DNA of 64,000 bases, from the IMG/VR virus record IMGVR_UViG_3300027777_000002, positions 1 to 64,000 of that record, one strand, 5' to 3'. Position numbers and translations under genes: made by a program. Shown in pieces: positions 2,882 to 61,243 of this stretch (the first letter of the stretch is position 1; every line of letters starts with the position of its first letter). The notes under the pieces were generated by a model. That model did no database searches, was not told where the DNA came from, and saw nothing but the letters and a program-made list of their open reading frames with translations. This DNA is from a virus.

Positions 2882-3754
2882 CTAGAAACTAAGATTGGAT
2901 AGGATTGCATCAACGTCTTTCTTAACTGCGTGGCGAGTATCTAAGTCCTTACGCAGATCGCTTAACTCCATGCCGTCAATAGCGTTGTGTAACTTGATGC
3001 GTGCGTCTTCTAAGTCTGCATCTCCTGTGATGTTTAAGTCCTTGGCTAGACTGCATAACTCGTTGGCAGTATCTAACAGGCTAGCGTGGAACATACGAGG
3101 TTGTGCTTTCTGTCCCGCATAGTCAACAGTCAGACGATCAGACATACGCTTGAGGTGATCTTTGAGTCGTGTCTTGATGTCGGACATAGCGTGCTCGATG
3201 CGCTCATCAGCTAGCTTTGCTAACTTGTTTTGTAACTCTGCTTGTGCATCATTACCTACATCTACTCGGAAGTCACCCGAGGTAGGCACAGGCATATAGT
3301 TAACTCGGAACTCGAAGCGGTGCTTGATGTCGTCAGGTGTTGGATACTCGTTGCGGTTGAACATATCACCGAGAGCCATAGCCTGTGCAGTAATCAAGGT
3401 AGGATAAGTAACTACGAAATCATCTACCAACGCATTGAACTCATCCTCGTAGTCTTGCATACGCTGATTGAACTCCATGAACTTAGATGTGGTCAGCAAG
3501 CGCAAACCTGAGTCAGACCAAGGCAACGTAACGTCATACATATAAGTGCGAATACTACCTACGCATTGGTTGATTGTTTCTAACTCAGGGCGACCAGCGA
3601 GTAAGTTCTTGTTAACTCGAGCCGCACCTTTACTGCCTGCACTCTTACCGATCAATACTTCCTCGGTTGTTGTCTTGTCTAGCTTGCGTGCAGTCCATTG
3701 GCGAACATTAACTTCTACCAACATAGCACAAGTATCAATATTAAAGCGTGTCAT
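2882..3754 (-). CDS. DUF3150-like protein of a MoxR/VWA triad, 290 aa
   Basis: I assign this to the DUF3150-type family from its layout: an N-terminal VNVRQWTARKLDK segment, the central LPWSDSGLRLLTTSKFMEFNQRM block and a long helical C-terminus (residues ~170-285) that should form coiled coil. It lies downstream of a VWA/metallopeptidase gene and a MoxR-like ATPase, spaced 14 and 9 bp and each with its own AAGGAG. In other phages and bacteria the same three families occur together, which suggests one complex, perhaps a chaperone or remodelling machine. No enzymatic motif is visible in this member. Confidence 0.7.
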   Translation of the reverse strand: MTRFNIDTCAMLVEVNVRQWTARKLDKTTTEEVLIGKSAGSKGAARVNKNLLAGRPELETINQCVGSIRTYMYDVTLPWSDSGLRLLTTSKFMEFNQRMQDYEDEFNALVDDFVVTYPTLITAQAMALGDMFNRNEYPTPDDIKHRFEFRVNYMPVPTSGDFRVDVGNDAQAELQNKLAKLADERIEHAMSDIKTRLKDHLKRMSDRLTVDYAGQKAQPRMFHASLLDTANELCSLAKDLNITGDADLEDARIKLHNAIDGMELSDLRKDLDTRHAVKKDVDAILSNLSF

Positions 3755-3768
3755 GTAATTCTCCTTTG

Positions 3769-4971
3769 TTATGAATAGATACGAACAGTTTTACCCTTGT
3801 TGGACACGAATGAATCGTTGTCCACTACACCAAACAGAATCGGACAGTCGGGTAATATGTAGTCTGATTCTATGTAGCCGTCTGACAGAATGATGGTAGC
3901 CTTGGGCTTGATCTTGTGCTTGGTCATATACTCCGATACACAAGTAAGTCGTGTGCCACCACCACCATTGGGCTGTAACAAGTCAGGTATGCGGTGATAG
4001 TCTTGCGGTTTGAATATCTGCTCACCTTCGATGTCGCACTCCCACCATAGCACACGCACTTGCTCAGGCTTGACGTTCTCACAGATGCGAGCAATCTCAC
4101 CGAACACAGTCCCATACAAACCCATCATGGAACCTGACGTATCACAAGCTACTACTAACTCGCCTGTTGATTCGCTGAAGTGTGATGGCATGAGGATACC
4201 CTGTGGTAGTAAGCGCTTGTTAGGCGGTGCAAAGCGAGAGTAGTCATCACCCTCACATAGCGTAGTGATGAAGTCACGCATATGGTCACGCCAGTTGGTG
4301 TCACGCTTTTGTGTAAGTCTATCTAGCGCACTACCATTCTTGCCGTTGCCACGATCTTGCAAACGCTTCTGCAATATCTTGCCTTGATGTAACGCTTCGC
4401 TAATCTCCTGTGCAGTCTTCTCGCCTATCGCCTCGGCTAGCTTGCCCATGATGTGATTGTCTAACGGCTCACCACCCTCACCATTACCCGCCTCAGGGTC
4501 GCCACCCTTCTCCTCGCACTCTTTGATTAAGTCTTGCAACACCTCAACGAATGACCAACCGAAATACTTCTTATCGAGTAGAGGTGGGATTGTGGTTGTA
4601 TGCTCGACAAAGCTATGCGTTGGGTCTGTTTCCTCGATCATGCCGTTGACTACATAATCCATAGCCATGTTACATAAGCGAGGATACTTCTTGGACAACG
4701 CAATGTGAGCAGAGCAATGATGTAACGCTTTGTGCATTGACTCATGCAACACCAAGAAACGTAACTGCTTGCGGTTCAACGGCTCGATAAAGCTAGGCGC
4801 ATACCACACGTTGCGACCATCAGTCCCCGCAGTCACTACGTTCTCGTCATACACTACGTCACCCACATACACCACACCTGATAGTGTGGCGAACAATGGG
4901 CTATTACTGATGTCGACGTGCGCTGATACGATACGATCGTTAAGCGCCATCTTTTCCCATGTGCTAGACAT
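3769..4971 (-). CDS. VWA-like metallopeptidase (DUF2201 type), 400 aa
   Basis: Two domains are visible. The N-terminal part (residues ~10-125) contains a zincin motif HESMH at 76-80 with further histidines at 84-85. The C-terminal part (~265-400) is a von Willebrand A domain with the MIDAS signature DTSGS at 277-281 and a later LSDGY loop. An acidic, glycine-rich linker lies near residues 155-172. This matches the DUF2201 pair of N-terminal peptidase-like and C-terminal VWA domains. It is sandwiched between the MoxR-like ATPase and the DUF3150-like gene, so it is the likely VWA partner of that ATPase. Whether it cleaves anything is unknown. Confidence 0.8.
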   Translation of the reverse strand: MSSTWEKMALNDRIVSAHVDISNSPLFATLSGVVYVGDVVYDENVVTAGTDGRNVWYAPSFIEPLNRKQLRFLVLHESMHKALHHCSAHIALSKKYPRLCNMAMDYVVNGMIEETDPTHSFVEHTTTIPPLLDKKYFGWSFVEVLQDLIKECEEKGGDPEAGNGEGGEPLDNHIMGKLAEAIGEKTAQEISEALHQGKILQKRLQDRGNGKNGSALDRLTQKRDTNWRDHMRDFITTLCEGDDYSRFAPPNKRLLPQGILMPSHFSESTGELVVACDTSGSMMGLYGTVFGEIARICENVKPEQVRVLWWECDIEGEQIFKPQDYHRIPDLLQPNGGGGTRLTCVSEYMTKHKIKPKATIILSDGYIESDYILPDCPILFGVVDNDSFVSNKGKTVRIYS

Positions 4972-4980
4972 ACGTTCTCC

Positions 4981-6099
4981 TTATTTAGTTGTGAAGTAAA
5001 TCTTGTTATCTTGAAGCATGGATTGGAACGGCTTGACAGTCACGAACGTGGACACACGACTAGACTGTGCAAGGTTGTGGCAGAACATAGACTGCATCTC
5101 CTTACGCATACGCAAGACATACTCGCACACACCCTCGGCTTCCTCTCTGCTATTGGTCTGCGTGATGCACTTGAGAACTGTAATGATTTGTGCAACAGGA
5201 TTCTCAGGCACAGGGCATGACTTGGGTTCTTTGACTATGCGAGAGAACTGCGGTGTCTGCTCACCGAACTTGATGAAAGCCTTGAGAGCCTCGGCACTAG
5301 CCTCACCGATAGTGCCTGACAAAGACGCTAGCAAAGTCGGCTCGTCCATACCATCCTTGCTATACACGATGTCCGATGCGCCATGCAGAGAGCGTGGAGT
5401 TACATACGAAGTCTGTGCGATAGATGGATTGAAGATGTGCTGATTGTGTGCTTCCATCTTCTGACCATGATACTTACCGCCATCGTGGTAGTCGATGAAG
5501 CTATCAAACATCTGTGGGTGCTCATCAGTAAACGCAATAACCTCAGGAGATAAGCCACGATCAATAGCCCACTCTCGCCACTCGGGTTGTGTAGGCTTAC
5601 GCATCTTGACAAACACTAAGCGGTTACGCAAGTGCGCTTGAATCGAATCGCCCAAACCCTCGATAGATAAGTTGGTTGCACAGAACACTACGCTACCCTC
5701 GGGCATGTGATAGTTGCCTACCCTACGCTCATACACGATTGGTGCAAGCACGTCCTTGATATACTGCCGAGCCTTGGCAATCTCATCTAAGAACACAAGT
5801 GCGGGTCGTGCGCCATTGATACCTTTCTGATTGTCCTTGTGAACACCGAAGCGCTCGTTAGGTAACTCACGAGATACACCCTTCTCACGATCAATGTCAG
5901 GCATCCACACCGAGCCGTCAGATAACTGCGTGCAATCAATCGGGTCAACGTGAACGTGGTTGGCAAAGAACGGGTCGTTAGCTAAGTGATAGAACAGACC
6001 AGTCTTACCGATACCATTCTCACCCTCAACAATGATGGTGCGCTTGTGACCTACTGCCTTGATGAGTTGTGATACTTGCTTGAATGAAAGCATTGTCAT
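4981..6099 (-). CDS. MoxR-like AAA ATPase, 372 aa
   Basis: This is an AAA-type ATPase with Walker A GENGIGKT at 26-33, Walker B LVFLDE at 101-106 and a sensor-like FCATN around residue 147. Its size and the VWA gene just downstream place it near the MoxR/AAA_5 group, which works with VWA proteins in remodelling complexes. A 140-bp gap with repeated GAGTTGTGATACT words precedes it, so it may head its own transcription unit with the two genes downstream. Confidence 0.85.
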   Translation of the reverse strand: MTMLSFKQVSQLIKAVGHKRTIIVEGENGIGKTGLFYHLANDPFFANHVHVDPIDCTQLSDGSVWMPDIDREKGVSRELPNERFGVHKDNQKGINGARPALVFLDEIAKARQYIKDVLAPIVYERRVGNYHMPEGSVVFCATNLSIEGLGDSIQAHLRNRLVFVKMRKPTQPEWREWAIDRGLSPEVIAFTDEHPQMFDSFIDYHDGGKYHGQKMEAHNQHIFNPSIAQTSYVTPRSLHGASDIVYSKDGMDEPTLLASLSGTIGEASAEALKAFIKFGEQTPQFSRIVKEPKSCPVPENPVAQIITVLKCITQTNSREEAEGVCEYVLRMRKEMQSMFCHNLAQSSRVSTFVTVKPFQSMLQDNKIYFTTK

Positions 6100-6238: not shown

Positions 6239-7210
6239 TTAGCTATACCACTTGCGTGGGATAGAGTCTTTGAACTGCCCCCAAGGTGTCTTGACTGTGC
6301 CTGTTTTCATACCGCTAATCTCAAGCACTCGGTTTACTAACGACTTCTTGAACTCGTCTGCTGTGATCTCGTTGCATATCTCACGCATCTTGAGGTTGTT
6401 AGCATCTATCTCCTCGGGTTTCTTACCCCATGTATGGAACAAACTACCTGACCAACGATCACCCTCAGGCACATAGTTATATATCCTATGGCTAGCAAGA
6501 ACGTCCATCACACCCTGACCTAGATCAAGGAAGTATTGGACAAAGTGTGGGTTATCAACCTCTAACTCGCTATCTGTGGCAGAGTGAACCCAACGGCGAT
6601 AGTCCTCAATGAACACAGGCTCTTTATGTTGCGTGCCAAATGGTGCGCCGTAGTCATCCTTGAAGGTAGCATGATCTTTGTATTCGTCTAGCCTGAACAT
6701 GGCTAGCGTGAGGAGTGTGTCTAGCTTGGTCTTGAAGTCCTTGCGCTTTTGCTTATCCTCGTTTGATGATCTGTATGTGTAGATGTCGAGGTGCTTGGAC
6801 TTATCTACGATCAGCTTACCGAAAGAATCAAACCACAAAGTTGCGCTTGGTTCGTTGTCTTGATAACCGCCTTGCACATACGGCACACATACTTGCTTGC
6901 CCTCGGTAGTTATTTGGTGGTAGTAGTTCAAGCCGTAGTCATACATAAAGATATTGGTAAGTTGACTACTGTAATACCGCATCTCTACCTTGCGTGTGCC
7001 ATCAGGTAGCGGTGGAAAGAACTTAGCCACGTTGGTGTTGTAAAGCCTGTAATAGATAGCGCCCGTTGCATCTTCTTTGTGGATACCCTTGTGCCAATTG
7101 CTTACGCCGTTAAGGTAGCGTGGGTTATCTGAATACTTCTTCCACTTCTGACTACGCTTTGGTGCTTTGCTGTTTTCGTAATGCTGTAATGCTTCTTCGT
7201 ATGTTCTCAT
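6239..7210 (-). CDS. hypothetical protein, 323 aa
   Basis: The start is the ATG at 7210, which has AAGGAG upstream and overlaps the TGA of the previous gene; a longer version to 7240 is unsupported. The protein (MRTYEEALQHYENSKAPKR...) is aromatic-rich and soluble, with a mix of helices and strands and no nucleotide-binding, metal or membrane motif that I recognise. Its place next to the ATPase triad may mean a related role, but no domain evidence supports this. Confidence 0.7.
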   Translation of the reverse strand: MRTYEEALQHYENSKAPKRSQKWKKYSDNPRYLNGVSNWHKGIHKEDATGAIYYRLYNTNVAKFFPPLPDGTRKVEMRYYSSQLTNIFMYDYGLNYYHQITTEGKQVCVPYVQGGYQDNEPSATLWFDSFGKLIVDKSKHLDIYTYRSSNEDKQKRKDFKTKLDTLLTLAMFRLDEYKDHATFKDDYGAPFGTQHKEPVFIEDYRRWVHSATDSELEVDNPHFVQYFLDLGQGVMDVLASHRIYNYVPEGDRWSGSLFHTWGKKPEEIDANNLKMREICNEITADEFKKSLVNRVLEISGMKTGTVKTPWGQFKDSIPRKWYS

Positions 7211-7881
7211 ACCATCTCTCCTTCTTCGTTGAACTTCCAATCGTTTGCTTCACATGCTTCTATTAAACTTGCTTCGCTTGTTAAGTATTCATACTCCTCC
7301 CTAAGTTGTTTGTATAGTTCATCTGCATAATCCTTTGCGCTTTCAAATGCGGCTTGCTCTATGTCGTTAGGATCTGTATATGAAAAGTCGGTTGATCTGA
7401 TTAGGTTGTGTAAGTCTTTGTATTGCATACCTTCAAAGATGGACGGCTTTGTTAAGTAGTGGTTTGAGTTTTCTACATCTGAACAGTCTACATCTACCCA
7501 ATCCCAACCTACGCAAGTCATGGTGTTGCTATGCGAGTAGTGATTGCTTCTTGTATGGATACTGAAATGCTTATCGCAAAAGTCTTCGGCAATCAAAGCG
7601 CACCACGCATCTCTAGCTATACTGTCCTCGGTATGCGTCTTGAGCCATGTCGCTACATCTACCTGACCTTCCCAACAAGCGCCATCACCTTGTGAGTAAA
7701 AGCCTGTGAAGTTCATCTTGTCAATGACAAACCCTAGCGCATAGCCTTCCTCTTTGAATCTCTCGTAGGTATCTTCATACCAGTCATCCCATATGCCATG
7801 CTCACACCACCACGCTTTTACTTTCTCCTTTGCGTTGTCGTCTAGTTGTTCGTATGTATAAGTCGTTTCTATGGTTTCCAT
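7207..7881 (-). CDS. hypothetical phage protein, 224 aa
   Basis: The start METIETTYTYEQL at 7881 has AAAGGAG upstream; the GTG extension upstream runs through a palindrome and is rejected. The N-terminus (YEQLDDNAKEKVKAWWCEHG followed by W/Y/D-rich sequence) is typical of a common but uncharacterised phage family. The protein is strongly acidic with many aromatic residues and a few cysteines. A 19-bp palindrome lies in its 5' leader, so it may be under the control of whatever recognises that element. Confidence 0.7.
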   Translation of the reverse strand: METIETTYTYEQLDDNAKEKVKAWWCEHGIWDDWYEDTYERFKEEGYALGFVIDKMNFTGFYSQGDGACWEGQVDVATWLKTHTEDSIARDAWCALIAEDFCDKHFSIHTRSNHYSHSNTMTCVGWDWVDVDCSDVENSNHYLTKPSIFEGMQYKDLHNLIRSTDFSYTDPNDIEQAAFESAKDYADELYKQLREEYEYLTSEASLIEACEANDWKFNEEGEMV

Positions 7882-7898
7882 ACTCTCTCCTTTGTTGT

Positions 7899-7917
7899 GT
7901 GGGAATAAATCCCACAC
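7899..7917. promoter_or_regulatory. 19-bp palindrome copy 1 (TGTGGGA-N5-TCCCACA)
   Basis: This is a perfect 7+5+7 inverted repeat; here the arms extend to 8 bp (GTGTGGGA/TCCCACAC, 7897-7917). It is in the leader of the 224-aa gene, about 15 bases before its Shine-Dalgarno. Three further copies have the same arms and the same 5-base spacer. It could be a DNA operator or an RNA hairpin. Confidence 0.65.
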
Positions 7918-48131: not shown

Positions 48132-51100
48132 ATGCCGTATTTACCATTACCCAATGGGTCTTATGTTGAAGTGCCAAAAGGTTTATCTGATGAAGAGGCG
48201 CTTAAGTTAGCAAAAGAACAATTCCCTGAGGGTTTTGAAGATTACGCTAAGCATAAAGAAAAAACTGGCTTTTTTCCAGCACTTACTTCCGGTTTTAAAA
48301 CTGGCGCTGGCTCTTATGCACAGGGCATAGGCAATACAGCAAATCTTGAAGGCGTAAACAAATACGGCACAGAATTAAAAAAAGCCGGTGAAGAAGGTTT
48401 TCAAAGTACTACTGACCAAGATATAGAGATTGCCAAACGTCAAGGCATTACATCTTTACTTGGTACCGGACTTAGCAAATATATTACAGAACCTGTTGGC
48501 GGAATGCTTGGTAGTCTTGCCGGTCGTTACGGTGCTCCTATTGCTGCTAACACTGTTGGGCGTGTTGCCGGTCCTGTAGTAGGCGCTGCAGCTTTTGCTG
48601 CTACAAACTTCCCTGCATATTTAGGTGAATTTGTTCAAGCACAAAAAGAGAAAGGTCAAGAAGCTGACTTTGGTAAAGCATTAGTACCCGCATTAGTTTC
48701 TACCGTTGTTGATTCTTTAGGTAACGAAATTGTTGGCGGAGCTATGAAAGGCTTTGCTTTAAGAACGGCAACTCAAGAAGCTAAACTACTAGCACCTAAA
48801 GTATTAAGCGGTGAACTTGGGGCACAAGAAGCTGCCGCACAAATTTCTGGCAAACTATCTAACGTATTAAAAGGCACGGTTGAAGCGGCTGGTGCTGGTG
48901 CTGCGTCTGGTATAGCCAATGAAGCGGGTCGTTTATATTCTATTGGCAAAGATATATTTAGCCCTGAAGCTTATGAACAATATATTCAAGCCGCTAAAGA
49001 TATGGGTATGGTTGCTCCGTTTTTTGGTTTGCTTCGTATGGGCGAGCCACGCAGAGCTAAAAAACTTATTGATGAAGCCGGTAAAAAAGTAGAGAGCGAA
49101 AAGCTGGCTACAGAAAAAGCTGCCGCTGAAGCAGAACAAAAAGCCTACCGTGAAAGCCCGGAAGGTATAGCGGAAATGGCGCAGCAACGCACCACGTTAG
49201 AACAACAAATTGCCGATCTTAAAGCTGTACTCAAAGATAAAACTTTACCTGATGAAGAGCGCCTTTTGGGTAAAGAACAAATAGGTGATCTGTATAAGCA
49301 GCTAAACGAACTTAAAAAACAAACTGGCGAAGTTGAAGAAAAACCTAGTACGCTTGAAGGCCGTTTAGAAGAACTACGGTTAAAGCGTGAGCAAGAAGCT
49401 ATAGCCGCACAACAACAAGAACAGATAATTAAGCAAAAAGAAATTGATGACGCAGCCAAAGCTGAAGAATTAAAACAAGGCGCTGAAGTTATTAAACAGA
49501 ATCCCGATTTAGCCCAAGCTGCTCATGCGGAACTATATAAACAAGTTGACGATCTTGAAACTCGTCTGCGTGACGCTGCCGAAAACGGGGACGTTGAAAA
49601 AGTAAAAAAAATTGGTGAAGAATACGACACAAAATTAGCCGCCTTACAAAGATTGCAAGCGCACGGTAAAGAAGCCGGTATTAGTTTTGAGCCGTTAGAA
49701 AAACAATTGGCTGCTGCTAAAAGACAGCTAGCAAACGTAACTAAAAAACTGGCTGATGACAAAGTATTAGAACCCGGTAAACGTGAAGAAATGGCTGCCG
49801 CAGTTGATGCTGCTAAAGCTAGAGTAACGGCTTTACAAGGGTACATTAATGATTTAAACCGCCGTGATGTGTTGCGTGGCGAAGAAAAAGCTGAACTCCC
49901 TAACCCTAAAGACTATCGTGATATTCCCGAAGAGGAGCGCATAGCTAGATTAGTTGGTATTAAAAGCGATAACATCAAATATCGTCAAATGCTTGATACA
50001 GACACTTTAACTAAAGTTGCAGATGATTTAGATAAAAATAAATTAAACAAAGAATCAGCAAACGCATTAGGTTTACCGGCTGGGCAAACTGCTTGGTATT
50101 TTGATAAGGGGCCAACCAAAAAAGTAGATACGCTACGTAACCACGTAGCAGAAGCACTTGCAACGATTGAAGAAGATGCAGCGTTTGCCAAAGCGCACAA
50201 CTTGCAGATAGAACCGGATGCTCGTGTTGGTGTATTAACAAACTTGTATGAAAAATTAAACGCTATAAAGCCGGCAGAAGGAGAAAAAGCCCCGACTTCA
50301 GCGGTTAGTTTATTGCGTTCTGCTAGAGGAGAACAACCGTACCTACAATACGTTGCTAAAAAAGCGGCGGCTAAACGTTTAAAACTAGAGGAGCCTAAAC
50401 TAAAAGAAGGCTACCGTCCAGAACATTTAGAACGTATTCGCAAAGAAATTGCGGATATTGAAAACACATTAAAAATTGATGAAGATCAAGCTAAAAAAGC
50501 TAAGAAAAAAAACAAAAAAGCCGGTAAGTTTGCAGTAGAGATTGTTCAATATAAACAACTTACTAAAGATGAAAAAGCGCGTATGCTGCGCCGCAAAGCA
50601 CGTCTTGAACAAGATTTAGAAGATGCGCAAATGCAGGGTGAGTGGAAAGCTACAGAATCCTTAAAAATTCAAGCTGCGTTAGAAGATGTAAATTTAAAAA
50701 TTGAAGACGCTAAAAACAACCCAAAAACAAAAATAACAAAGAACGGGGTAGCCAACCTACTTAACCTTAAAAAGCGTTTAGAACTTGATTTAGCTAAAGC
50801 GCAACAAGGTGAGTTTGGACAGTTAGCTGGGGCGCCTACGCCTAAAGGTACGGTAGCGGGTGAGCAGGCTGTGCCTGCTAAACGTCAAGAAACTGCCATT
50901 TCTGAAATTATTGACAATATTGATTCGTTGCGTAAAGGCGAGTTTTTTGGTGGTACCGCTGGTAAAGAAGGCCTTTTAGAAAGCAGATCTCGTGAAGTTA
51001 TTTTGCGTTCTATTCGTAATGAAATTGACACGTACGCTGCTGGCGCTATTACGGAAATTAATGCTGGGCGCCGTAGTAACGACTTGCCCGACTTAACAAA

Positions 51101-54100
51101 GCAAGAAGAGAATACAGTACGTACCGTTGTTGAAGTGTATCTTGGAACTAAAGCTGAACGTGCTACAGGGTATCGTGCGACTCGTTTGCGTGCTCAAGAA
51201 AAAGGCGCCGCTAAGCTTACTCCTGAAGATACAGCCATAGCTGAAGCATTTGAAAAAGCCGGATTTGAAGGTGCAAGCGAATTAACTAAAAAGCAAAAAC
51301 AAATTATGCAGGCTGTTGGTATTGATCCAACAGAATTTGATGGGCACTCATCAGCTGAAATACAAGCGCTGTACAACCGTGTTAACTTTGTACAAAAACA
51401 ATACGACGCCGCTTCCGCTGGTTTAGAAAAAGCGCAAGTTTCGGGCGATATTGATGCGCAAAAACAATTTAAAGTTAGAAAAAACAAACTTAAAACTCGT
51501 CTTGACGAAGTTAAAGCTAAGTACGATACCGCTACAAAAGCGTTTGTTGAAGGCGCAGAAGAAGAAACAGGTGTAATTCGTACGGGTGTTAAAAAAGAAG
51601 AAGCTGATGAAATTTTAAACAGACTTAAAGCTCTTAAAGAAGCGTTTGGTTCTAAAGCGTATAAGTATAGAGAAGCGCCTGCTATTACCGCCACTAAGAT
51701 GGGCGAGACTAAAGACATTAATGTAACACCAAAAGAAGCTGATACGGCAAAACTTTTAAAAGAAGGCGAGAAAAAAGCTGCTCGTGAAACAGGTCTTGGA
51801 CTACCCGGTAAACGAGTTACTACTCAAGTATCTACCGGCACAATATATGAAACCGATTTAGTCAATGCCGATAAAACAGCTAAAAAACTTGGTAATTTGT
51901 TTAAAAAATCTAACGACCAACTAAAAAGCGAAAATGAGCGTGAAGCTGCCCGTAAAGTATATGAAGAGGCACTTGAAAAAGATGGTAAACGTTTAGAAGA
52001 TTTAGGCTTTGGTGACGTAAAAGACGAAGACAGTTTAGCGGGTATGCTGCTTGCTCGTGCAAAACTTGACGACCCTAAGTCGGCAGAATACAAACGTTTA
52101 ACCGACAGCATTAATAAAGAACAAAACTCGTTGCGTGAAGCCGCCGCCAGAATAACTAAAGCAGAACGTTTCAAAAAAGATATTGGCGAAAGCTCAATAG
52201 AAAAAGAAGAGAAAGCTAAAGCACTACAAGCGGAACAACTTGAAGAGTCTAAACGCACCGTTGAGCGTAGAAAAAATCGTGTTACTGAAAAACAACGTGC
52301 TGCAATTAAAGCAACTGTTGAAAAAGAACTTGCGGCTGCTAGAGCTAAATTAATTAAAAAAGTACCCGATAATGCTACGGCAGCGCAAAGAAAGTCTATC
52401 AACGCAGCCAATGACAAAATTCGTATTGAAAGACAAACTTTAGAAGCTCAGCTCGATATTATTAATGGCGGTGATTTTGAGGCGTTGCGCACTCGTGGCA
52501 AGATTAAAGAAGAAGCTTCTGACCGTTTGTATAAAAAATCTGCTTTTGAAAAAGAAGAAGATAAGAAACTTCGTGACGTAATAGAGAAAGATGAAAAAGG
52601 CATTGAATTAACTGATGCTGAAGAAAAAATTTATACTGACGCTTCGTCTAAAGGAATTAATGCCGAAGGATGGTTAAAAGGCGAAGCAGAAACCACAATA
52701 AGAGCTATTGATGAAATAAAGCAAAAATATTTAGACGAAGCAGCTACCAAAAAAGAGCTTATATATTACGTTGACACTCTTAGAAAGTGGCGCGGTATTG
52801 CTCGTAAAAAAGAACAGCGCGCTGACTTTTTATATTTAGACAAACAAGTAAAAGACGTATCAAAACGCCTTAAAACTTTACAAGAAGAAGCCGCTGCCCC
52901 AGCTTTAGAAAAACATGCTGCTCGTGAAGAAGCGGAATATGCCGCATCGCCAGCCGGTAAGAAAACTGCCAAACGTATTGGGTTTGTTAAAAAGCGTATT
53001 GCTGAAAAAGAAACAAAGAAAGCGTTTGCGTCAGCCGCTGAAATGTATGAAGCTGAAATGCTTAAAGCACGTAAGGCTGGTTTTCAATCTCCCGAAGAGA
53101 TGGAGCGTTATATTCGCAACGCCAGCAAGTCAATGGACGTTGAAGAAAACACACGAGATATACGTAATCTATTTGATAGAGACCTTTCAGAGTTAGATTA
53201 CGATAACTATGACGATTTTGGTAACGTGTTCCGTTTAGGCTCAAAAGAAAAAACTACGGCAAACCTTAAAGAAACACGACGTGTTGCTGACGAGTTTAAA
53301 GCTAAACTGCCTGAAGGAGTTAAGTTTGAATACGCTGATACTGCAGTAGAGTTGCCTGACTATGTTCGCCGTCAAATTTCTAAAGAAGAAGCGGACATAA
53401 TGAAGGGTGCCGTACTTAAAGACGGTACTATTGTTATTGTTGGCGACACGCACAAGACTATGCTGGACTTTGAAAAAACGTTAGCACACGAAGCTGTTGG
53501 ACACTACGGATTAGATCGTTTGCTTGGGCTAGAAGGTATGGTTAATTTAGCTAAGCGCATTGAAGCACAGCCCGGCGGGTTTGTTCGTATGTCTAGAGAA
53601 CTTGGCGTACTTGATGATGTTATGCACGCTATTAGAGAAGCTAGAAAGAGCGACCCTAATCTAACGCCTGAACAAGAAATGATGGTGGGCGTGCGTGAAA
53701 TGATTGCGCACTTTGAAGAACAGCGTTTAGATAGCAAAAACTTTTTACAAAAAGCTCAACGTTTTATTAAAGAGTTAATAGGTCAGTTTAAAGATTGGCT
53801 ACGTAAAAACAATTTAATGGAGTTAAGTAAGGTTACTGACGCCGACTTATTGTTTGTGCTTAAGCGTTCTAAAGAAGCAATGGAAAGCAGAGGCGGTTTA
53901 CGTTCCGGCGATATTGGCATGGAAACTGCTTTCCGTAAAGCTAAACCTACTGACAGCAACGATCCGTTGATGCAGCTTTCTAACACATTAGTTGCTAAAC
54001 CAAAAACAGTTACCGAATCTTTTAAAGGCAACTTAGCGGCTTTTAATACGCAGTTTGTTGATCGCCTAGCGCCAATTAAAGAGATATGGCGCCGTATGGG

Positions 54101-56555
54101 TGAAAATGCGGCATCTTCACAAATGATTTACAAACTACTGTCTCATGGACAGCGGACTAACATTACTAGTGAAACTTTGGTAAACGGCGCTCGTGTGTTT
54201 TACACCGACCCAACTACAGGCGAAGTAACTATCCGTGCGTCGGGTGGACCCGGCATGAAACAAGTTTTAGATGAGTTGCTTAAGTCAACTAAAGGTAATC
54301 CTGAAGCGTTAAATCAAATGTTTACTGCATATGCTGCAGCTAAACGTGCTAAAAGCGTTGGGTTTGAAAAACTGGTACGTGACGGTGAAATTGACGGTAA
54401 CAAAATTACCAAAGATATGCTGGCTGCCGCTGAAAGATCAGGCGATGCGGACCCTGCGTTTGTTAAAGCGTTTGAAACATATCAAAAATATAACCACGGC
54501 TTAATTGATTCCTTAGCTAGTTCTGGATACATATCTAAAGATAGTGCGGCTAAGTTTAAAGCTAAAAACTACATACCTTACTATCGTGCTCGTGGCGGTA
54601 ACGTAGATTTAATCATTGGTAACGAGTCTCCAATTCGTATTGGTTCTTTAAAAGACCAACCATATCTACATGAACTAGTTGGTGACAACACAAAGATTCA
54701 AGACTTTTTCCGTACTTCTGTACAGAACACCAACATGATTACTGAAATGGCTTTGCGCAATGATGCAACAGCCAGCGTAGCTAACACGTTAAAGAATCTT
54801 GGAATTGCTGAAATTCATAAAGGTAGCGGGCCAGCAGGACCAAACGTAATACGGTTTAAAAACGATGGTAAGGACTACCACGCTGTAATTGATACATCTA
54901 AAAACGCCGAGTTTAGCGATATTAGCTCAGAGCTTTTAGTTAAAGGTTTAGAAGGCATACCTACTCAGCTTCCGGGTATTGTGCGTTTGCTTGGCATACC
55001 GGCTAACTGGCTACGTAAAGGCGTAACACGTAACCCATTCTATGCGTACAAACAGTTAGTGCGTGACCCAATATCCGCTTGGTTAACATCAGGCGCTGAT
55101 TTTGTGCCTATTTTATCGTCGCTTAATGAGATTAATAAAGCCGTACGTGGTCAAAGCGATACAGCTAAAAAATTACAAGAAGCCGGTATTTTAGGTGGGG
55201 AAATTTACACAGGGCGTGCAGAAGATTTAAATCAAATTGTTACTCGCCTTAAGTCAGGCAAAGCTAATTTAAATGGCGCTATGGCTTTTATGGATAGAGT
55301 AGCTACTGAAGCAGATGCGTCCACTCGTTCTGTTATATACGAAAACTATCGCAAGCAAGGCTTGTCAGATATGGAAGCGCAGATTGCCACAATGGAGTCA
55401 ATGAACTTCAATACTCGTGGTGCGTCGCCTTCTATGCACTGGGTTAACACAATGGTGCCGTTTTTTAATTCGGCGATTCAAGGCTACAACGTAATGTATA
55501 AAGCGTTTAGTGGCAATATGCCTTACGCTAAGCGTTTAGAGTTGCAAAACAAATTAATAAAACGTGGCTCAATGATAATGGGTATGTCTATTTTGTATGC
55601 TATAGCGCAACAAGATAACGAAGCGTATCAAAACGCTACGCCTGAACAGCGTTACATGAATTGGTTTATACCCGGCATGGGCAAAGATGGTAAAGAATCA
55701 TTTAGATTGCCAATCCCGTTTGAAATAGGTTATATATTTAAAGCGTTACCTGAAGCTATTGTACGTATGGCTTATGCTGACGACAAAGCTAAAGAAGGCT
55801 TAGATGCAATTAAGACTGTATTGCAAGCAACTAATCCTATTGGAATACCCACCGCTATTAAAGCACCGCTTGAAATTGCTATGAACCGTTCAGTGTATTC
55901 AGGGGCGGAAGTAGAAAGCAAACGTTTGCAGGGGTTAAGACCAAACGAGCGTTATTACGATACGACTACAGAAGTGGCTAAGTTAATTGGCGGTAATCTT
56001 GGAGAGGTTGGTAACTTCTTTGGTATATCACCAGCTAAAATAGACTACTTAGCTAAAGGGTATTTTGGTGGGCTGTATACAACCGTTGCTACATTGGTAA
56101 ATCCTTTAATCGCCGATATACGCGGTGATAAATCTACTGTAAAACCTGACGGCACAATGGCTGATTTGCCTGTGTTTGGTCAAATGTTCCAACCTAAAGA
56201 TGCTGGCGGTCTTACTATGAAAGCGTACGATGTTTTAGAAAAAGCATCGCAGTATTCTGAAACATATAAGCATTTCCAAGAAACGGGCGCTGAAAAAGAA
56301 GCTGAAGAATACGGCAAAAAATACGAACAAGAAATTAATATTGGTATGGGCGCTGCTAGTATGAAAGCTGAGTTAGATCAGTTGTCAGGACAAATTCGCA
56401 AAGTAAAAGAACAGCGTTTACCTTCCGGTATGGATTCTAAACAGTTTGCAATTCAAAAACGTGAACAGTTAGATGAATTGATGCGAACTAGAGCAAAACT
56501 AGCAAAACAATTTAGTGCCCAGATCGCCGAAACAAAACGCCAATCTTCCCGTTAA
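48132..56555 (+). CDS. giant ejection/polyvalent protein with peptidase-like motif, 2807 aa
   Basis: The N-terminus LPLPNGSYVEVPKGLSDEEALKLAKEQFP is a known opening of internal virion proteins. Residues ~50-330 include Gly/Ala-rich putative membrane segments. Residues ~330-1700 are mostly charged coiled coil. A zincin-like motif HEAVGH (HEXXXH, 1786-1791) lies in LAHEAVGHYGLDRLL. The last ~850 residues (YRARGGNVDLIIG, FYAYKQLVRDPISAW, MVPFFNSAIQGYN) resemble LPD-type polyvalent domains. It is probably delivered into the host with the DNA and may act as a T7 gp16-like channel plus effector. Confidence 0.8.
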   Translation: MPYLPLPNGSYVEVPKGLSDEEALKLAKEQFPEGFEDYAKHKEKTGFFPALTSGFKTGAGSYAQGIGNTANLEGVNKYGTELKKAGEEGFQSTTDQDIEIAKRQGITSLLGTGLSKYITEPVGGMLGSLAGRYGAPIAANTVGRVAGPVVGAAAFAATNFPAYLGEFVQAQKEKGQEADFGKALVPALVSTVVDSLGNEIVGGAMKGFALRTATQEAKLLAPKVLSGELGAQEAAAQISGKLSNVLKGTVEAAGAGAASGIANEAGRLYSIGKDIFSPEAYEQYIQAAKDMGMVAPFFGLLRMGEPRRAKKLIDEAGKKVESEKLATEKAAAEAEQKAYRESPEGIAEMAQQRTTLEQQIADLKAVLKDKTLPDEERLLGKEQIGDLYKQLNELKKQTGEVEEKPSTLEGRLEELRLKREQEAIAAQQQEQIIKQKEIDDAAKAEELKQGAEVIKQNPDLAQAAHAELYKQVDDLETRLRDAAENGDVEKVKKIGEEYDTKLAALQRLQAHGKEAGISFEPLEKQLAAAKRQLANVTKKLADDKVLEPGKREEMAAAVDAAKARVTALQGYINDLNRRDVLRGEEKAELPNPKDYRDIPEEERIARLVGIKSDNIKYRQMLDTDTLTKVADDLDKNKLNKESANALGLPAGQTAWYFDKGPTKKVDTLRNHVAEALATIEEDAAFAKAHNLQIEPDARVGVLTNLYEKLNAIKPAEGEKAPTSAVSLLRSARGEQPYLQYVAKKAAAKRLKLEEPKLKEGYRPEHLERIRKEIADIENTLKIDEDQAKKAKKKNKKAGKFAVEIVQYKQLTKDEKARMLRRKARLEQDLEDAQMQGEWKATESLKIQAALEDVNLKIEDAKNNPKTKITKNGVANLLNLKKRLELDLAKAQQGEFGQLAGAPTPKGTVAGEQAVPAKRQETAISEIIDNIDSLRKGEFFGGTAGKEGLLESRSREVILRSIRNEIDTYAAGAITEINAGRRSNDLPDLTKQEENTVRTVVEVYLGTKAERATGYRATRLRAQEKGAAKLTPEDTAIAEAFEKAGFEGASELTKKQKQIMQAVGIDPTEFDGHSSAEIQALYNRVNFVQKQYDAASAGLEKAQVSGDIDAQKQFKVRKNKLKTRLDEVKAKYDTATKAFVEGAEEETGVIRTGVKKEEADEILNRLKALKEAFGSKAYKYREAPAITATKMGETKDINVTPKEADTAKLLKEGEKKAARETGLGLPGKRVTTQVSTGTIYETDLVNADKTAKKLGNLFKKSNDQLKSENEREAARKVYEEALEKDGKRLEDLGFGDVKDEDSLAGMLLARAKLDDPKSAEYKRLTDSINKEQNSLREAAARITKAERFKKDIGESSIEKEEKAKALQAEQLEESKRTVERRKNRVTEKQRAAIKATVEKELAAARAKLIKKVPDNATAAQRKSINAANDKIRIERQTLEAQLDIINGGDFEALRTRGKIKEEASDRLYKKSAFEKEEDKKLRDVIEKDEKGIELTDAEEKIYTDASSKGINAEGWLKGEAETTIRAIDEIKQKYLDEAATKKELIYYVDTLRKWRGIARKKEQRADFLYLDKQVKDVSKRLKTLQEEAAAPALEKHAAREEAEYAASPAGKKTAKRIGFVKKRIAEKETKKAFASAAEMYEAEMLKARKAGFQSPEEMERYIRNASKSMDVEENTRDIRNLFDRDLSELDYDNYDDFGNVFRLGSKEKTTANLKETRRVADEFKAKLPEGVKFEYADTAVELPDYVRRQISKEEADIMKGAVLKDGTIVIVGDTHKTMLDFEKTLAHEAVGHYGLDRLLGLEGMVNLAKRIEAQPGGFVRMSRELGVLDDVMHAIREARKSDPNLTPEQEMMVGVREMIAHFEEQRLDSKNFLQKAQRFIKELIGQFKDWLRKNNLMELSKVTDADLLFVLKRSKEAMESRGGLRSGDIGMETAFRKAKPTDSNDPLMQLSNTLVAKPKTVTESFKGNLAAFNTQFVDRLAPIKEIWRRMGENAASSQMIYKLLSHGQRTNITSETLVNGARVFYTDPTTGEVTIRASGGPGMKQVLDELLKSTKGNPEALNQMFTAYAAAKRAKSVGFEKLVRDGEIDGNKITKDMLAAAERSGDADPAFVKAFETYQKYNHGLIDSLASSGYISKDSAAKFKAKNYIPYYRARGGNVDLIIGNESPIRIGSLKDQPYLHELVGDNTKIQDFFRTSVQNTNMITEMALRNDATASVANTLKNLGIAEIHKGSGPAGPNVIRFKNDGKDYHAVIDTSKNAEFSDISSELLVKGLEGIPTQLPGIVRLLGIPANWLRKGVTRNPFYAYKQLVRDPISAWLTSGADFVPILSSLNEINKAVRGQSDTAKKLQEAGILGGEIYTGRAEDLNQIVTRLKSGKANLNGAMAFMDRVATEADASTRSVIYENYRKQGLSDMEAQIATMESMNFNTRGASPSMHWVNTMVPFFNSAIQGYNVMYKAFSGNMPYAKRLELQNKLIKRGSMIMGMSILYAIAQQDNEAYQNATPEQRYMNWFIPGMGKDGKESFRLPIPFEIGYIFKALPEAIVRMAYADDKAKEGLDAIKTVLQATNPIGIPTAIKAPLEIAMNRSVYSGAEVESKRLQGLRPNERYYDTTTEVAKLIGGNLGEVGNFFGISPAKIDYLAKGYFGGLYTTVATLVNPLIADIRGDKSTVKPDGTMADLPVFGQMFQPKDAGGLTMKAYDVLEKASQYSETYKHFQETGAEKEAEEYGKKYEQEINIGMGAASMKAELDQLSGQIRKVKEQRLPSGMDSKQFAIQKREQLDELMRTRAKLAKQFSAQIAETKRQSSR

Positions 56556-60844: not shown

Positions 60845-61243
60845 TTAAGTTGTTGGTTTAGTAACGGTTACGGTGTTTTCAGTTAAAGAAGATAACCCCG
60901 CCGGAACCTTTCCGGGATTTTCTTCCAAAAATAAAGCCATATTAGATTGAGAAATTCTTCTTTCTACCAAATCCAAAGCATCGTTGTCCATCATAAATGT
61001 TTTGAATGAATCCCAATCGTCTGTGTAGTACCTCTTTTTAGTAGACAGGGAGATGTTGCCGCCCTCTGTTTTAACAGACTTAAGTCCAAGTTCACGCATT
61101 TGATCTTTCATAGCGTTCTTGAGTTCGTCTTTCTGTTCTTCCAGTTTGTCTAACTGTTTTTGTATTTCTTGCGTTTTTAAATATATCTTTCGATACACTC
61201 TTGCTAAAGTTTCTAGCGGTACTACTTCGTTTTCTTCTGACAT
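60845..61243 (-). CDS. coiled-coil replication-module protein, 132 aa
   Basis: Residues ~15-55 form a coiled coil (KTQEIQKQLDKLEEQKDELKNAM), followed by a beta/alpha domain (LKSVKTEGGNISLSTKKRYYTDDWDSFKTFM) like Gp157-type phage proteins. AAAGGAG lies upstream. It is probably an accessory to recombination or replication. Confidence 0.65.
   Translation of the reverse strand: MSEENEVVPLETLARVYRKIYLKTQEIQKQLDKLEEQKDELKNAMKDQMRELGLKSVKTEGGNISLSTKKRYYTDDWDSFKTFMMDNDALDLVERRISQSNMALFLEENPGKVPAGLSSLTENTVTVTKPTT

Follow-up and report, generated by a model that had tools for sequence, protein, structure and literature searches.

A MoxR ATPase, zincin-VWA and DUF3150-like gene trio in phages, conjugative plasmids and ICEs: a candidate protein-remodelling machine of mobile DNA

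Three adjacent genes of an uncultured virus encode a MoxR/midasin-type AAA+ ATPase (A), a protein with a zincin-like metallopeptidase domain and a VWA-like domain (B) and a DUF3150-like alpha-helical protein (C). The window (the whole stretch of DNA that was analysed, 64,000 nucleotides) covers positions 1 to 64,000 of the viral contig IMGVR_UViG_3300027777_000002, which measures 66,558 bp. The analysis suggests that the trio is a shared machine that helps mobile DNA to replicate, recombine or establish, rather than to build virus particles. In the reading given most weight here, at a probability of roughly one in two, A, B and C form one ATP-driven protein-remodelling machine of mobile elements that acts on protein-DNA complexes and not on the virion. 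The class of the machine is well supported; its target is what we infer.

The three genes and their products

The genes for A (372 aa, PHROG 1297, positions 4981..6099), B (400 aa, PHROG 1314, 3769..4971) and C (290 aa, 2882..3754) are contiguous on the minus strand, with intergenic gaps of 9 bp (A-B) and 14 bp (B-C). A purine-rich ribosome site (Shine-Dalgarno) is found at each of the three starts (AAAGGAAAT, AAGGAGAACGT and AAAGGAGAATTAC), and a promoter scan yielded fewer sites than in shuffled sequence. The dN/dS values (0.09-0.11 for A and B, 0.13-0.14 for C) show purifying selection on each of the three, and all have many homologues, so that a chance assembly of open reading frames can be excluded. 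The sequence-only reading had described three adjacent genes with their own ribosome sites, encoding a MoxR ATPase, a zincin plus VWA protein with HESMH and DTSGS motifs and a DUF3150-like protein. The reading frames, here placed on the minus strand, and both motifs were recovered, and the three family assignments proved correct in Pfam, PHROG, profile-profile and fold matches. The structural similarity it expected was likewise found, linking A to midasin, the VWA domain of B to the MIDAS domain of MDN1 and C to a DUF3150 protein in BFVD.

In A, the Walker A motif GENGIGKT (residues 26-33, positions 6001..6024, minus strand) and the Walker B motif LVFLDE are intact, and G29, G31 and K32 are invariant in the alignment. 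The protein matches PHROG 1297, labelled 'ATPase', at 1.7e-43, and in a search of its family profile against solved structures the AAA domains of midasin came out best (E 3.9e-17). Against Pfam AAA_5 it scores 15.1 bits, under the 22-bit cut-off. On the evidence of both Walker motifs and of its nearest relatives, in the MoxR/midasin AAA branch, A is classed as a MoxR AAA+ ATPase. In the A proteins of Burkholderiales the DE of Walker B is replaced by DD: the plasmid-borne copies of loci L122, L123, L134, L060 and L064 read FLDD or FFDD, the phage copies FLDE. This substitution may alter hydrolysis.

B scores above the Pfam cut-offs for both DUF2201_N (PF13203, 56.9 bits) and the VWA family DUF2201 (PF09967, 43.2 bits). 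Its zincin motif HESMH (residues 76-80) lies at 4732..4746 and its MIDAS motif DTSGS (residues 277-281) at 4129..4143, both on the minus strand, and GGGGT and LSDG follow downstream of the latter. In an alignment that includes the N4 and PA5oct proteins, H76, E77, H80, H85, D105 and the MIDAS residues are invariant. The two domains together with HExxH and MIDAS assign B, by sequence, to DUF2201_N/DUF2201. An AlphaFold2 model (pLDDT 79) has the human MDN1 MIDAS domain as its top PDB match, and NorQD is also listed. PHROG 1314 carries the label 'HNH endonuclease', as does the zincin-VWA protein in many phage records. This label was rejected for B, which has HExxH and VWA domains and no HNH match; since the sequence holds a metallopeptidase and a VWA domain, it appears to be a mistake passed on from record to record.

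The two motifs of B are not conserved to the same degree. MIDAS is retained in all copies that were examined, and HExxH in 110 of 110 phage copies, in three of three N4-like or jumbo copies and in 53 of 59 plasmid copies. Six Burkholderiales homologues (L125, L126, L128, L130, L145 and L064) have lost HExxH and kept MIDAS, with replacements such as HDVLH, ALKVMQ and SATVLH. Proteolysis is therefore not essential everywhere. With MIDAS intact in all copies examined and HExxH lost in some, the core activity of B would seem to be remodelling through MIDAS, and proteolysis an addition that is strongly retained yet dispensable.

C scores 22.3 bits against DUF3150 (PF11348), just below the gathering cut-off of 24.9. 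Aligned to canonical DUF3150 with hhalign, it matches over its N-terminal half (probability 95.8, E 6.7e-9), and the profile-profile match to Burkholderiaceae plasmid proteins reaches E 2.4e-32. A Manganitrophus protein acts as a bridge: it scores 35.3 bits to DUF3150 and is found from C by tblastn at 3e-15. The structure model of C is helical and of moderate quality (pLDDT 72). In a Foldseek search of BFVD the best match was a DUF3150 protein (E 3.6e-16), and eight viral predicted proteins were found at E <0.001. Against the PDB, neither the sequence search nor the single-protein fold search gave a significant match, and no enzymatic signature was seen in C. Profile, bridge and fold support the view that C is a divergent relative of DUF3150 and not a curated member of the family.

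The trio across phages, plasmids and ICEs

Similarity to B or C was used to collect 109 related viral loci, a few contigs being represented twice; 98 of them contain A, B and C. The order is ABC in 79 of the 98, BAC in 11 and ACB in eight. Ten of the 11 exceptions are cut by a contig end, and only the distant locus L059 is truly without C. Membership is thus kept though the order changes, which is good evidence for a joint function. Mirror-tree correlations are high for A-B, A-C and B-C (0.92-0.93); the next gene, D, reaches nearly the same values (0.90-0.94), and the analysis therefore adds little beyond shared ancestry. N4 and PA5oct keep A and B, and a profile search of their genomes detected no C, so C is not universally needed.

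The record of the cyanophage MinM2 contains all three genes with small genes in between. This record and those of Pag-Yong1 and Pra-JY27 (OQ594354, OL906435 and PP438419) carry different names and hosts, yet all are 65,014 bp long and give identical match scores; they may be one virus. Locus L065 lies on pRBH2-3, which is listed as a plasmid of Acinetobacter baumannii (75 kb, circular). It has an RNA polymerase gene and the A+B pair, as in N4-like phages, and may be the genome of such a phage under a plasmid label.

The trio is also widespread on plasmids. C matches 44 plasmid records, mainly from Burkholderia, Paraburkholderia, Cupriavidus and Variovorax. Of 63 plasmid or bacterial loci, 60 have A, B and C, mostly in the order A-C-B. 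Downstream of the trio, VirB11 is present in 43 and VirB4 in 42 of these 63 loci, and PRTRC genes lie upstream in a subset. In the Burkholderiaceae plasmid loci L061 and L122-L124, the upstream PRTRC cassette (a ThiF-family gene and others) is accompanied by a poorly conserved protein of about 500 aa encoded between cassette and trio. The sequence-only reading held that finding the genes apart in close relatives would count against a functional unit; the co-occurrence survey it called for shows them kept together, in viral as in plasmid and bacterial loci. Its phage-centred framing proved too narrow, the trio being a module of phages, conjugative plasmids and ICEs alike.

Canonical DUF3150 extends this picture. 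Of 399 genomes sampled from the same phylum, eight have it above the cut-off. In several of these loci an AAA+ gene lies nearby, together with a gene whose product, of 550-730 aa, is an HExxH-VWA protein that contains CobT and VWA domains. The arrangement is less clear for L195; for L193 and L197, the VWA gene was the one partner seen to adjoin DUF3150. One DUF3150 locus is 98% identical to R997, a member of the R391 family, and reads ssb, bet, exo, AAA, x, DUF3150, x, VWA, radC (x, other gene). The IncC plasmid pR148 has the order AAA, x, ssb, bet, exo, DUF3150, VWA, and pCFA1707-1 the order ssb, RecT, exo, IS, x, MoxR, DUF3150, VWA. In these gammaproteobacterial elements the trio thus neighbours ssb, bet/RecT and a lambda-type exonuclease. 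DUF3150 is present in 1168 plasmid records, 978 of them predicted to be conjugative. The zincin domains of the phage-type B and the CobT-like B are related (profile-profile E 1e-5, with HExxH aligned). The strongest sign that the machine includes DUF3150 is its occurrence as third component with two AAA/VWA pairs that diverge from each other. On a Manganitrophus plasmid (L062), DUF3150 adjoins a classical AAA ATPase, DUF1257 and DUF2997, and no VWA gene was found nearby; this is possibly a third architecture.

Within the window, the trio lies in a minus-strand replication block with genes for a VRR-NUC/Hjc-like nuclease, DNA polymerase A, a PD-(D/E)XK exonuclease, a SNF2-type helicase and a primase-like protein; the plus strand carries the structural genes. 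D (333 aa, window 6239-7240) and E (236 aa, 7207-7917), which precede the trio on the upstream side, recur beside it in many relatives. Both are without known function and evolve faster than A, B and C; the dN/dS of D is 0.21-0.26. Elsewhere in the window, a protein of 132 aa (60845-61243) has a match to the Pam3 gp33-like DUF7307 and a weak one to Mu Gam-like end protection; it might guard DNA ends beside the exonuclease. A 2807 aa reading frame (48132-56555) matches only PHROGs of unknown function.

A nucleotide search gave no close cultured phage. By terminase, the nearest are HTVC027P, 023Pt_psg01, DSL-LC04 and HTVC023P (48-52% identity), of which DSL-LC04 and HTVC027P also share the portal (41-45%) and the major capsid protein (64-66%) with the window. 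A, B and C were absent from the whole genomes of all four phages, and the trio is therefore not required for this head type.

A proposed machine and its alternatives

MoxR-VWA systems (midasin, NorQD, CbbQO, RavA-ViaA) work by ATP hydrolysis in the ring and by the binding of a partner's carboxylate at the MIDAS site of the VWA domain. By family resemblance, A would form such a MoxR-type AAA+ ring. B would dock on the ring via its VWA domain, with the MIDAS site gripping a carboxylate on the partner, and the zincin domain may clip the extracted chain. C would be a dedicated third subunit, most likely an adaptor for target recognition. Judging from gene location, the target would most likely be a protein-DNA complex that is met during the replication, recombination or establishment of the element. 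It is placed among complexes of DNA metabolism because of the ssb-bet-exo and replication neighbours. However, the copies in Burkholderiaceae are flanked by PRTRC genes on one side and type IV secretion genes on the other, and not by ssb-bet-exo. A more general proposal is offered tentatively: DUF3150 would mark a class of three-part MoxR machines, not described before, in phages, conjugative plasmids and ICEs (IncC, SXT/R391-type) that strip or cleave proteins off incoming or recombining DNA, with DUF3150 as substrate adaptor, and would serve as a general machine of establishment or anti-defence.

The main rival, and a close one despite being somewhat doubtful, is anti-defence or host takeover. 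Here the machine would dismantle or cleave a complex of the host, a defence complex or a nucleoprotein one, directed against the incoming DNA, and C would recognize the host target. Such a role would suit a trio that is common to entering elements of very different biology and that lies early in the minus-strand block of the window, and it would fit the strong bias of DUF3150 towards conjugative plasmids. The PADLOC defence library gives only weak, generic AAA matches, as expected for a non-defence gene; on the same result, the trio was rejected as a host defence system. However, A, B and C evolve slowly, more slowly than D and E and unlike many arms-race proteins, and the ssb-bet-exo association in gammaproteobacterial elements points to the element's own DNA metabolism. 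If the target were a host complex on the DNA of the element, anti-defence and the remodelling of protein-DNA complexes would overlap. Both ideas, remodelling of a complex and anti-defence, had been raised beforehand and remain plausible.

The other two readings are less probable. A chaperone of virion assembly that processes structural proteins is unlikely, although it has been proposed in print for the A+B pair of jumbo phages (Iyer et al. 2021, PMC7824862) and although RPP1 has structural proteins near its gp24/gp25 homologues. The trio is absent from phages with a terminase, portal and capsid like those of the window, is present in plasmids and ICEs, elements that lack a virion, and sits in the replication block rather than the structural one. 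Virion assembly is therefore disfavoured, and with it, where the earlier idea of a matured phage enzyme is concerned, the maturation of a virion component; a machine of virion maturation would be present wherever the virion module is, which is not the case in the four terminase-related phages. Still less probable is a chaperone that inserts a metal or cofactor into an element-encoded metalloenzyme in the manner of CobS-CobT, NorQ-NorD or CbbQ-CbbO. The ICE versions do score to CobT, CbbQ_C and AAA_5, and NorQD chains are among the fold matches of B; however, in the plasmid and ICE loci that were read, the annotations next to the trio include neither a CobN-like protein nor any other obvious client enzyme, and no client metalloenzyme gene is evident that would be common to phage and plasmid elements.

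The remodelling machine preferred here would be a conserved device found both in environmental phages and in the backbone of conjugative plasmids and ICEs of clinical importance, so that tractable E. coli elements could serve to test its role. It would also tie an unnamed domain, DUF3150, to a motor with known mechanics.

Comparison with known systems

The A+B pair has been met in phages before. N4 gp24 and gp25 are core genes of the Schitoviridae (PMC4193335, PMC7650795). Like the window, these phages have adjacent homologues of A and B; the proteins are only 20-26% identical to those of the window, and a profile search of the N4 genome gave no C. In group 2.2 jumbo phages, a MoxR ATPase was reported next to a vWA protein that begins with a metallopeptidase domain, and virion assembly was proposed by analogy with the Acidianus two-tailed virus (PMC7824862). 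The passages on it describe a pair, without DUF3150, whereas the window has a trio. The present results argue against the proposed assembly role, at least for the phage group of the window.

No paper on DUF3150 was found in the literature searched, which mostly excludes subscription journals. A search of the paper on SXT bet/exo finds no mention of the adjoining CobS/CobT-like genes, and in the pAQU1 paper CobS and VWA proteins appear only in a table. In line with the earlier statement, no established job was found for the trio; the A+B pair had already been described in phages. C as a third component and the spread across element types appear to be unreported.

Among plasmids and ICEs, the SXT/R391-type ICEs and IncC plasmids resemble the window in clustering AAA+, DUF3150 and HExxH-VWA genes, with a homologous C and zincin domain. 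Unlike in the window, their AAA protein is of the CbbQ/NorQ type, B is larger (550-730 aa, CobT-like) and the genes are linked to ssb-bet-exo.

The MoxR-vWA ternary conflict systems (Kaur et al. 2020, PMC7159879) share the three-component architecture. They are host-borne defence candidates whose third parts are VMAP, FtsH, beta-propeller or iSTAND proteins, whereas that of the window is C, which has no match to any of these in Pfam, NCBIfam or PADLOC; the trio was not counted among them. Nor was it assigned to the cobaltochelatase CobNST, no CobN being annotated beside the trio in the loci read.

In NorQD, CbbQO and RavA-ViaA, as in the proposed machine, a MoxR ring and a VWA partner remodel a client; unlike the trio, these systems have two components and known, host-encoded clients. 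Among solved structures, midasin (Rea1/Mdn1) comes closest to A by sequence and to the VWA domain of B by fold. It differs from the trio as a single giant eukaryotic chain with neither a zincin domain nor DUF3150, but like the proposed machine it combines an AAA ring with a MIDAS domain, and it strips assembly factors.
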